Of a DNA stretch of 64,000 nucleotides, positions 7,856-64,000 are shown piece by piece; the first letter of the stretch is position 1, and every line of letters starts with the position of its first letter. The notes under the pieces are model-generated. The model was not told where the DNA came from, did no database searches, and saw only the letters and a list, made by a program, of their open reading frames with translations. Source of the stretch: Pseudarthrobacter sp. GA104 (GTDB lineage: Bacteria; Actinomycetota; Actinomycetes; Actinomycetales; Micrococcaceae); NCBI RefSeq assembly GCF_009741265.1, contig NZ_WOWL01000001.1:1612001-1676000 (forward strand), given 5' to 3'. The position numbers were made by a program, and so were the translations under genes.

Positions 7856-7922
7856 GCCTCCCCCACCATCAGGGGAGGCACGACGGCGCGCCGCACCGAG
7901 AGGGTCGGTGCGCCGTCGTGCC
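7856..7922. terminator. Two adjoining hairpins between nadE and the iclR-type gene
   Basis: GCCTCCCC (7856-7863) pairs with GGGGAGGC (7872-7879). A second structure pairs GGCACGACGGCG (7877-7888) with CGCCGTCGTGCC (7911-7922), with CACCGA/TCGGTG extending the stem. The two share bases 7877-7879 and so are mutually exclusive at the junction. They lie between convergent genes; no long T tract is present. Confidence 0.65.
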
Positions 7923-7945
7923 TTGCCCTGGAAGGCAGGAGGGAC

Positions 7946-60486: not shown

Positions 60487-60520
60487 CCGGCAATCCTGCC
60501 GGGGCATGCCCCGGACAAAA

Positions 60521-60560
60521 AGAAATCCCCGCCCTGCGCAAGCAGTAGGCGGGGATTTCT
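60521..60560. terminator. Bidirectional intrinsic terminator
   Basis: AGAAATCCCCGCC (60521-60533) and GGCGGGGATTTCT (60548-60560) form a perfect 13-bp stem. On the minus strand the stem runs into TTTCTTTTTG, a strong T tract; on the plus strand into TTTCTGTT. A 16-nt palindrome CCGGGGCATGCCCCGG (60499-60514) precedes it. It serves both flanking small genes. Confidence 0.88.
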
Positions 60561-60582
60561 GTTGGTGTGCTTCCCGGGGCTG

Positions 60583-60981: not shown

Positions 60982-62574
60982 TCAGGAGAGGATTCCGACG
61001 GCGGATTCGGCCGCCCTGCGCACCTCGCCCGAGGCCACCAGCCTGTCGGCAGCCTCGAGCTCGGGTGACAGGAAGCGGTCCGTCCCCGGCCCGTCCACCA
61101 CGCCGCGCAAAGCGGAGACGACGGCGGCGCCCGCCGGCCCCGGCGTCAGGACCCCACCGGAGAGCCGGCTGCGGATGTCCAGGGCGCGTGCCGACGTCAC
61201 CAGCTCGATGGCGAGGACCCGGCGCAGGTTCTCCACCGCCTTCCGCAGCTTGCGTGCGGCGTGCCAGCCCATCGAGACGTGGTCTTCCTGCATGGCGGAA
61301 CTGGGGATGGAGTCCACGGAGGCGGGAACAGCAAGCCGCTTGTTGTCCGAGACCAGGCCGGCCTGGGTGTACTGGGCAATCATCAGCCCTGAGTCCACGC
61401 CGGGGTCGGCCGCAAGGAAGGCCGGCAGGCCGTGGGAGCGGGCCGGATCCAGCATCCTGTCCGTCCGGCGTTCCGCGATGGAGCTCAGGTCCGCGACGGC
61501 GATGGCCAGGAAGTCCAACACGTAGGCCACCGGCGCACCATGGAAGTTGCCGTTGGAGCTGACCGTTCCGTCAGGCAGCACCACAGGGTTGTCGATGGCG
61601 GCCGCCAGTTCGCGGGACGCCACCAGGGCCGCGTGGTCCACTGTGTCCCTTACGGCGCCGGCAACCTGCGGGGCGCAGCGGAGCGAGTAGGCGTCCTGGA
61701 CCCTGTTGTCGCCAACCTTGTGGGAAGCGACGATGGGGGAACCGGACAGGACACGCAGCATGTTGTCGGCGCTGGCGGCCTGCCCCGGATGCGGACGAAG
61801 CGCGGCGTGCAGCTCCGGCAGGAACACCTGGTCGGTGCCCAGCAGTGCCTCGACGCTCATCGCCGCGGTGATGTCCGCCGTCGTCAGCAGCTGGCGAAGG
61901 TCCGCGATGGCCATGAGGAGCATGCCCAGCATGCCTTCGGTGCCGTTGACCAGGGCCAGGCCTTCCTTTTCCGCGAGGGTGACCGGTTCGATGCCGTGTT
62001 CTGCAAGCAGTACCGCGACAGGCTGTTCGCCGCGGCCGCCGTACGTCACGCCGTCGGGCCCTTCCGCCTCGCCCTCGCCCATGAGCACCAGGGCGCAGTG
62101 GGACAGCGGTGCGAGGTCGCCCGAGCAGCCGAGCGAGCCGAACTCGCGGACCAGCGGCGTGATGCCGGCGTTGAGCACGTCCACCATGGTCTGCAGGACC
62201 ACGGGCCGGACGCCGGTGCGGCCGGACGCCAGGGTCTTGGCTCGCAGGAACATGATGCCGCGCACCACTTCGCGCTCCACTGCCGGTCCCATGCCGGCTG
62301 CGTGGCTGCGGATCAGGCTCTTCTGCAGCTGGGTGCGCAGCTCATTCGGGATGTGCCGGTTGGCCAGGGCACCAAAGCCGGTGGAAATTCCGTAGGCCGG
62401 GACGTCGCTGGCTGCGAGCTCGTCGATGTGGGCGCGGACTTTTGCCACCGTGTCCAGTGCTTCCGGGGAGATGGTCACCTTCGCGTTGTGGCGCGCGACG
62501 GCGAGCACGTCCTCGGGCGTAACGCCGCTGGACCCGAGGGTAACGGTCAGCGGTTCGTGGGTTATTGCGGTCAT
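60982..62574 (-). CDS. hutH: Histidine ammonia-lyase
   Basis: This 530-residue enzyme deaminates histidine to urocanate. The catalytic Tyr61 is in YGISTGFGAL. The MIO prosthetic group forms from the tripeptide at 150-152 in GSLGCSGDLAPLSH, where Cys replaces the usual Ala (Cys-Ser-Gly). NGTEGMLGML, PQVAGAVRDT-like region CAPQVAGAV, and QEDHVSMGWHAARKL follow as in all HALs. The start at ATG 62574 has AGTAGGAACC upstream. It is the second gene after hutU, separated by 87 bp containing a perfect inverted repeat. Confidence 0.95.
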   Translation of the reverse strand: MTAITHEPLTVTLGSSGVTPEDVLAVARHNAKVTISPEALDTVAKVRAHIDELAASDVPAYGISTGFGALANRHIPNELRTQLQKSLIRSHAAGMGPAVEREVVRGIMFLRAKTLASGRTGVRPVVLQTMVDVLNAGITPLVREFGSLGCSGDLAPLSHCALVLMGEGEAEGPDGVTYGGRGEQPVAVLLAEHGIEPVTLAEKEGLALVNGTEGMLGMLLMAIADLRQLLTTADITAAMSVEALLGTDQVFLPELHAALRPHPGQAASADNMLRVLSGSPIVASHKVGDNRVQDAYSLRCAPQVAGAVRDTVDHAALVASRELAAAIDNPVVLPDGTVSSNGNFHGAPVAYVLDFLAIAVADLSSIAERRTDRMLDPARSHGLPAFLAADPGVDSGLMIAQYTQAGLVSDNKRLAVPASVDSIPSSAMQEDHVSMGWHAARKLRKAVENLRRVLAIELVTSARALDIRSRLSGGVLTPGPAGAAVVSALRGVVDGPGTDRFLSPELEAADRLVASGEVRRAAESAVGILS

Positions 62575-62591
62575 GGTTCCTACTTCTGTGG

Positions 62592-62651
62592 ATCGATTGC
62601 TCCGTACCTGTCGTATTGCGGGCTCTAAACGACAGGTACGGAGCAATCGAT
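62592..62651. repeat. Perfect 23-bp inverted repeat between hutU and hutH
   Basis: The left arm 62592-62614 (begins ATCGATTGCTCCG, ends CCTGTCGT) and right arm 62629-62651 (begins ACGACAGG, ends AGCAATCGAT) are exact reverse complements over 23 bp with a 14-nt loop. It starts 17 bp before the hutH ATG. G+C is about 50 percent, lower than its surroundings. There is no T tract on either side, so it is not a canonical terminator; an attenuator, mRNA stabiliser or dispersed palindromic element are options. Confidence 0.92.
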
Positions 62652-62661
62652 GTGGGGTTGG

Positions 62662-64000
62662 TTAGTGTGTCTCGTTCATGGGGATGCGGACGCCGCGTTC
62701 CCTGGCGACCTCGAGGGCGCGGTCGTACCCGGCGTCGGCGTGGCGGATGACTCCCATGCCGGGGTCGTTGGTAAGGAGGCGTTCGAGCTTCTGCGCGGCG
62801 AGGTCGGTGCCGTCGGCGACGGAGACCTGGCCGGCATGGATCGAGCGGCCGATGCCTACACCTCCGCCGTGGTGGATTGAGACCCAGGTGGCGCCGGAAG
62901 CGGTGTTGAGCAGGGCGTTGAGCAGAGGCCAGTCAGCGATCGCGTCGGAACCGTCGGCCATGGACTCGGTCTCGCGGTACGGCGAGGCGACGGAGCCGGA
63001 GTCGAGGTGGTCGCGGCCGATGACGATGGGGGCCTTGACCTTGCCGTCCTTCACGAGCTGGTTGAAGAGCAGGCCGGCCTTGGCGCGGTCGCCGTAGCCG
63101 AGCCAGCAGATCCGGGCCGGCAGGCCTTCGAACTCGACGCGCTCCGCGGCAGCATCGATCCAGCGGTGCAGGTGCTTGTTCTCCGGGAACAGTTCCTTGA
63201 TGGCTTCGTCCGTGACGCGGATGTCTTCGGGGTCGCCGGACAGGGCAACCCAGCGGAACGGGCCGAGGCCCTCGCAGAACAGCGGGCGGATGTAGGCCGG
63301 GACGAAGCCGGGGAATTCGAAGGCGCGGGTGTACCCGCCCTTGCGGGCTTCGTCGCGGATGGAGTTGCCGTAGTCGAAGACCTCGGCGCCGGCGTCCTGG
63401 AACTCGACCATGGCCTGGACGTGCTTGGCCATCGAGGCCTGGGCTTTCTTGGTGAATCCCTCCGGGTCAGCCGCGGCTTCGCGGTGCCATTCCTCAACGG
63501 TGATGCCCTCTGGGAGGTAGCTCAGCGGGTCGTGCGCCGAGGTCTGGTCGGTGACGATGTCGACGGTGAGTTCGCCGGCCTTGTGGCGGCGCAGGATTTC
63601 GGGGAAGACGGTGGCGGCGTTGCCCACGTAGCCCACGGACCAGCCGCGGCGCTCTTCCTTGGCCTTGAGCACCTTGGTGATGGCGGCGTCGAGGTCTGTT
63701 TCGACCTCGTCGAGGTAGCGCTTGCCGGCGCGGCGGCGCAGGCGGGTCTCATCGACGTCGACAATCAGGCAGGCGCCCTCGTTCAGGGTGACGGCGAGCG
63801 GCTGGGCGCCGCCCATGCCGCCGCAGCCGCCGGTCAAGGTCAGGGTCCCGGCGAGGGTGCCGTTCTCATCCCCGGCGAGTTTCCGGGCAACGGCTGCGAA
63901 GGTCTCGAACGTGCCCTGCAGGATGCCCTGGGTGCCGATGTAGATCCAGGACCCGGCGGTCATCTGGCCGTACATCATCAGGCCCTCGGCCTCGAGCCGG
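62662..64000 (-). CDS. hutU: Urocanate hydratase (N-terminus beyond the window)
   Basis: About 445 C-terminal residues of a roughly 560-residue enzyme are visible; the frame is open through base 64000. It hydrates urocanate to imidazolone propionate using tightly bound NAD+. [19 protein letters not shown] is the NAD-binding glycine motif, [14 protein letters not shown] the family signature with the active-site Cys, and [20 protein letters not shown] another conserved stretch. It is upstream of hutH on the same strand, with the operon promoter outside the window. Confidence 0.95.

Follow-up and report, generated by a model that had tools for sequence, protein, structure and literature searches.

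The closest described systems are the REP elements of enterobacteria and Pseudomonas, the I-shaped terminators of mycobacteria and the DNA uptake sequences of Neisseriaceae. REPs are dispersed extragenic palindromes of 20–40 bp, often found after stop codons; their definition, as given in the part of PMC3733652 available to us, includes an unpaired GTAG or CGTC tag. A passage of PMC12306157, which cites Liang et al. 2015, reports that E. coli REPs placed no more than 15 nt from the stop codon stall ribosomes and lower translation. The mycobacterial I-shaped terminators are presented in the excerpt of PMC12288462 as hairpins that lack a U-tract and lie no more than 50 bp past the stop codon; whether a U-tract is needed is a matter of dispute. 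The same excerpt describes them by their shape and not as a repeated sequence. In Neisseriaceae the dialects of the uptake sequence are lineage-specific and its inverted pairs are associated with terminators, according to the portion of PMC3630211 available.

We have studied a palindrome found between two genes of histidine degradation, hutU and hutH, in a high-GC actinobacterium. It belongs to family A (60 bp), which has a sister family, B (66 bp). Both look and sit like REPs and U-less terminators, without some of the features that define REP-RAYT systems and mostly without those of a canonical terminator. Like REPs they are dispersed, extragenic and often placed after stop codons, but they are longer and lack an unpaired tag (GTAG or CGTC) at their end: both ends of each consensus are paired (ATCGAT in A, CCCAACT in B), and GTAG is found inside the B stem. 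They also differ by a hypervariable centre of 6 nt and by the absence of a detectable RAYT gene: the Y1_Tnp domain (PF01797) was found in none of 25 genomes of the genus, in a search where 5 of 14 named controls were matched. A REP system driven by RAYT is rejected for these 25 genomes. With I-shaped terminators they share a U-less hairpin close to a stop codon in a high-GC actinobacterium; unlike those in the description above, A and B are repeated sequences, and termination is a candidate function for them. Lineage-specific variants spread over the whole genome and inverted pairs recall the uptake sequences, but here the unit is the whole palindrome, there are tens of copies and the variants partly coexist. 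The abundant unpaired single sites typical of uptake sequences were not found in the genome studied: its arms are 34 forward and 34 reverse, thus mostly pairs, and there are two isolated half-matches of A.

No description of these families was found in the openly licensed papers searched. There, 12-letter pieces of B and of a further type, S, which is presented below, are absent, and pieces of the A arm appear only in 3 papers, on unrelated organisms. A table row in the part of PMC12306157 available counts palindromes over the whole genome of one Arthrobacter species, so that such counts are already in print for this genus; the A and B families are not named in that part.

We will start with the hut copy, which lies in the window, i.e. 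the whole 64-kb stretch of DNA that was analysed. Its features are given in Table 1. On the minus strand the hutU stop codon (62662-62664) is followed by the stem-loop and by the hutH ATG at 62574, with a stop-to-start distance of 87 nt. The first-pass annotation had described two exact 23-bp arms around a 14-nt loop, 17 nt before the hutH start, with no U-tract and a lower GC content than the surroundings. All this was confirmed: the arms are complementary in 23 of 23 positions, no U-tract follows the stem, and the element has 52% GC as compared with 69% in the surrounding 2 kb. The same annotation ranked it first among the hairpins of the window in both length and perfection. It is indeed the longest perfect hairpin there (loop 3–20), but it is not the longest if imperfect arms are admitted: the hairpin at 321-375 has 25-nt arms which are 92% complementary. 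A chance hairpin is ruled out by the predicted folding energy of the RNA (-43.8 kcal/mol, z -11.2) and by first-order Markov simulations of the window (n=100), in which perfect arms never exceeded 14 bp. A search of Rfam with positions 62400-62800 gave no family at the gathering score and only four sub-threshold matches to microRNAs.

Table 1. Features around the palindrome between hutU and hutH (positions in the window)
Feature	Position	Strand	Basis or remark
hutH (histidine ammonia-lyase)	60982..62574	-	name from the first-pass annotation, sequence alone
17-nt gap with probable hutH ribosome-binding site AGTAGGA, outside the long stem	62575..62591	-	sequence, fold
Whole 60-bp element	62592..62651	-	compared with the A copies of its own genome
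Family A palindrome arm (3' arm in hut mRNA)	62592..62614	-	sequence
Unpaired 14-nt middle of the window copy	62615..62628	-	family frame close to TTTTG...CAAAA, hypervariable central 6 nt
Family A palindrome arm (5' arm in hut mRNA)	62629..62651	-	sequence
Gap of 10 nt from hutU stop codon to stem	62652..62661	-	sequence
hutU (urocanate hydratase), 3' part in window	62662..64000	-	name from the first-pass annotation, sequence alone

The possibility of further copies in the same genome (4.78 Mb, 2 contigs), already raised in the first-pass annotation, was borne out by three methods. BLAST with an 80-bp query gave 39 strand-matches at E <= 10, corresponding to about 20 places. A covariance model (R1), built from 17 A copies of this genome, detected at least 63 candidate places for A or B, two of them below 22 bits; at least 22 are A, and at least about 40 are B and its near variants. 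Since only 150 of 1348 first-look candidates were scored, the figure of 63 is a lower bound and more places may exist. A search with the core common to both families, TGTCGTTTTG-6 nt-CAAAACGACA, allowing up to two mismatches, found 66 places, of which a few look fortuitous, and its reversed control gave 0. In a distant blastn search no copies were found on plasmids.

The A copies are quite uniform in size: of the 18 which were measured, 16 have 60 bp and one 59 bp; the remaining copy, L029, is truncated. Their consensus is close to CATCGATTGCTCCGTA-NN-TGYCGTTTTG-N6-CAAAACGRCA-NN-TACGGAGCAATCGATGG, with the outer 15 bp nearly invariant. The B consensus, near variants included, is CCCAACTAGGTAGCGCYAAGTGTCGTTTTG-N6-CAAAACGACACTTRGCGCTACCTAGTTGGG. 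The central 6 nt have 49 distinct sequences among 60 copies of the genome, but the first base is a purine in 58 and the last a pyrimidine in 56 of the 60. An uncontrolled observation is that the sequence before the stem is C-rich in the A and B copies of this genome and G-rich after it, often with GGG runs.

The position of the copies with respect to genes differs from random placement. Genes around the 63 candidate places were called with our own codon-usage script and not taken from an annotation. One place is inside a called gene and the other 62 are intergenic: 23 in gaps between two minus-strand genes, 22 in convergent gaps, 12 between two plus-strand genes and 5 in divergent gaps, where random placement in the gaps of the window would give 51% divergent. 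A majority start very close to a stop codon, within 15 bp in 48 of the 62, the hut copy included, which is the distance of the E. coli REPs that stall ribosomes; 52 are within 20 bp. Random placement of 60 bp in window gaps of at least 60 bp gives only 12% when counted by base, or 30% when counted by gap, within 20 bp after a stop codon. In 14 of the 62 there is overlap between the element and the end of the called gene. We have read 13 places, mostly picked for this overlap: in 11 of them the stop codon is inside the element, and seven of these 11 proteins end in PN, encoded by CCCAACTAG or CCCAACTAA. A palindrome scan of 80 hut loci gave a similar picture: of 83 strong palindromes, which are not independent because the hut loci are orthologous, 1 is in a divergent gap and 56 are at most 25 bp after a stop codon.

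The I-shaped terminators are U-less hairpins within 50 bp of the stop codon; here 55 of the 62 copies lie within this distance, and 49 of the 55 copies placed in tandem or convergent gaps have no T-rich end. In the remaining six, as a raw count, an 8-nt stretch near a facing end contains 5 T or more; the clearest cases are G000:C1:731600 and 1601995. A narrower test, which considers only the sequence past the 66-bp segment and one sense of the convergent gaps, gives 0 of 55. A canonical intrinsic terminator is ruled out for the window copy and for most of the others by the lack of a U-tract in 49 of 55. Among the 80 hut loci, ordinary hairpins with A/T-tracts (U-tracts) are found at the end of hutH in some related species, which indicates that both kinds of hairpin coexist. 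Taken together with the scarcity of T-rich ends, this makes strong intrinsic termination by A and B doubtful. In the window itself, a hairpin at 60515-60566, flanked on either side by A and T tracts, is a candidate for an ordinary bidirectional terminator and does not resemble the repeat families.

Conservation of pairing was studied at three gene ends, traced over 37 genomes of the genus with the best 30 loci of each search. The gene before the B copy G000:C1:965075 has 21 loci with over 60% identity among its best 30, which we have taken as orthologs. The 66-bp B palindrome is present at this convergent gene end in 20 of the 21, imperfect in L291 and L292 and absent in L293. Its stem sequences are very diverse, with GTAGCGCCAAGTGTCG, CTCGCATTTGTTGTCG and GTAACAGCAAACGTCCC among them. 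In an alignment of 19 rows 88% of the cells are paired, with two-sided changes in 21 of 30 pairs. There are 105 two-sided cells, as compared with a shuffled mean of 31 (0 of 500 shuffles as high) and with 24 at most when the partners are slid. Eight of the nine excluded loci (L299-L306), which belong to a relative 45–48% identical to the traced gene, have A at the gene end. The other two ends are less uniform. At the convergent end G000:C1:2350998 we found by eye, among the best 30 loci, 14 A, 7 palindromes of the type ACGACGGCGG...CCGCCGTCGT and 9 with something else or none. At the tandem end G000:C1:2523541 a B-type element is present in 4 of the best 30 loci, its own included, and 26 have neither A nor B.

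In family A the evidence for pairing is weaker. The hut copies show two-sided changes in 6 of 28 pairs, a number reached in 113 of 500 shuffles, and 19 two-sided cells as compared with 9.9 (0 of 500); 12 pairs never vary and the pair 25/42 is broken in 16 of 23 rows. The 17 A copies of the genome give similar values, with 7 two-sided pairs (116 of 500 shuffles as high) and 20 cells as compared with 11.9. Conservation of pairing, considered in the first-pass annotation for orthologous hut operons, is thus strong at one B site and weak at hut itself. Since most of the A stem is invariant, pairing in the RNA and recognition of the DNA cannot be separated from the A data: the constancy of the outer 15 bp fits recognition of a sequence as well as a stem.

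The hutU-hutH junction was compared in 80 rows, the window and 79 related loci, with each spacer tagged by its motif. The tags are tight 39, A 22, A+G 2, B 7, B+G 1, S 7, G 1 and unclear 1. Therefore A is found between hutU and hutH in 24 of the 80 rows of the tree, and about half of the species have no palindrome. The S rows (L139, L141, L145, L148, L158, L202, L216) have palindromes of the type TTTCGACAAGCTC, some of them imperfect. In all rows with a spacer over 60 nt, except L170, there is a motif of some repeat family. In the 39 tight rows the distance from stop to start is -4 to 10 nt, and AAGTAGG, the probable ribosome-binding site of hutH, contains the hutU stop codon in 23 of these rows. 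The tag G is partly wrong: in L178, L189, L206 and probably L176 the repeat is inside the start of hutH, so that L189 is really a tight junction. This further dispersed repeat, CTCCCTAACCTCGCANGCTCGGCCAGGGAACCCTG, seems to be in frame in the first hutH codons of L178, L189 and L206. It is also found in the spacer of L171, and there is a similar sequence after L029 1545, the broken A copy at G000:C1:4558816.

These states have changed frequently. The gene tree accommodates the tags with 34 changes, not far from the 36.5 obtained on average by shuffling (31 of 200 shuffles give as few). There is some clustering of the tight state when it is taken by itself: 21 changes as compared with a shuffled mean of 26.9 (10 of 500 as low). 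The starred branches alone force 16 switches between tight and other states, and even sister species differ: L200 is tight and L214 has A. The spacer contains GAGCC in 16 of the 24 A rows, in the loop in those rows which were read. This common sequence speaks for an old allele which has often been lost, swapped or exchanged, over many independent insertions.

R1 has matches in 37 of 37 genomes of the genus and in 0 of 22 others of the order. The number of copies in the genus is uneven, from 2 to at least 87 strand-matches per genome (E <= 0.001), where no more than 88 candidates per genome were scored. A wider sample of the family gave matches in 34 of 149 genomes (E <= 1e-5), with one genome of the genus (G163) lacking any. 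Strong copies were detected in two further genera: four genomes of g40 have at least 32–35 matches, and one of the two g28 genomes listed has 24. A family confined to one genus is therefore discarded. Genomes of still other genera have 1–10 matches, in part perhaps chance palindromes.

The B stem has several variants. Using exact patterns, GTAGCGC was found in 11 of the 37 genomes, CTCGCATT in 6, neither in 20 and both in none. A third variant, GTAGCAG, is present in 23 of 37; it is dominant in G015 (32 and 33) and appears alongside GTAGCGC in many genomes. Within the CTCGCATT genomes it is found 0–2 times per strand, which hardly differs from the reversed control (0–2). The clear coexistence of GTAGCAG with GTAGCGC weakens the notion of exclusive dialects: B variants dominate by lineage without being exclusive. 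Palindromes which combine a GTAGCGC arm with a GTAGCAG arm were found at G021:C1:2669529, G009:C7:126389, G029:C1:2053622 and G000:C1:1221874.

On balance we incline to a role in the mRNA: A and B would be REP-like, mostly U-less hairpins at the 3' end of messages, which at hut would set the ratio of hutU to hutH. An effect in the mRNA on hutH relative to hutU, as suggested in the first-pass annotation, agrees with where the hairpin lies. What we infer for this operon by analogy is that the palindrome would be transcribed with hutU and form a 23-bp stem shortly past its stop codon. A fraction of the polymerases may stop at the stem, or the RNA downstream may be lost; the stem may also shield the hutU transcript at its 3' end. 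Furthermore the hairpin would separate the translation of hutH from that of hutU, which are adjacent in species with a tight junction. As a net effect hutH would be lower or separately set. Between convergent genes the same palindrome could act for both strands. The present data do not distinguish among transcription stop, message protection and effects on ribosomes.

We consider rather unlikely that the palindromes are selfish miniature mobile DNA of the REP/MITE type, moved by an enzyme in trans, with 3' ends merely tolerating their insertion. The first-pass annotation had thought of such an element, and its dispersal and position are indeed REP-like; dispersed copies in such uneven numbers, genes which extend into the element and end at a stop codon within it, and the rapid turnover at hut all agree with it. 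Mobility itself is only putative: the Y1 type, the only transposase searched for, was found in none of the 25 genomes. Neither a target duplication nor a clean empty site was seen at the hut rows, where the relatives compared are too distant for a sharp test and rows with and without the element differ across the whole spacer. Nor would passive insertion predict the B site, where nearly all orthologs keep the palindrome and its sequence shifts pairwise.

An improbable alternative is a DNA signal for a sequence-specific protein, involved in uptake, chromosome organisation or repair, as in the uptake sequences of Neisseriaceae. It would agree with the nearly invariant outer arms of A and with the lineage-dominant B stems GTAGCGC and CTCGCATT, which are never found together, but GTAGCAG does coexist with GTAGCGC, the arms are mostly paired, and copies number tens and not thousands. 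Such a signal also leaves the position after stop codons unexplained. A dedicated regulator of hutH, limited to the hut operon, is hardly credible. The frequency of A at this junction is in its favour, but the same genome has over 60 other places, the junction is tight in about half of the species and Rfam gave no match at the gathering score; an exclusive role at hutH is refuted by the copies elsewhere in the genome.

Along with the mRNA hairpin we suggest, only tentatively, that the palindromes at gene ends evolve together throughout a genome: at some sites the palindrome and its pairing would be kept across the genus, and the stem sequence would be replaced in most of the copies of a given lineage (GTAGCGC, CTCGCATT and others). 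Such a set would require either a trans-acting factor which reads the stem and changes along with it, or a RAYT-free conversion which copies palindromes of 60–66 bp. Conversion may perhaps proceed one arm at a time; mixed GTAGCGC/GTAGCAG palindromes are found. Higgins et al. 1988 reportedly raised as a question how dispersed REPs stay alike within a genome. If our reading is confirmed, one group of soil actinobacteria marks the ends of genes with repeated, mostly U-less hairpins, some of which bear the stop codon, in the absence of RAYT. These hairpins would then be a natural test set for the question whether U-less hairpins can end transcription in high-GC bacteria, and for the way in which short dispersed palindromes stay alike within a genome. 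In Arthrobacter, A and B might also serve as parts with which to set expression ratios.

The window has other long hairpins, at 321-375, 384-442 and 7876-7923. The first and the last share ACGACGGCG, a third type of palindrome; at an orthologous gene end, 7 of the best 30 loci have it where others have A.
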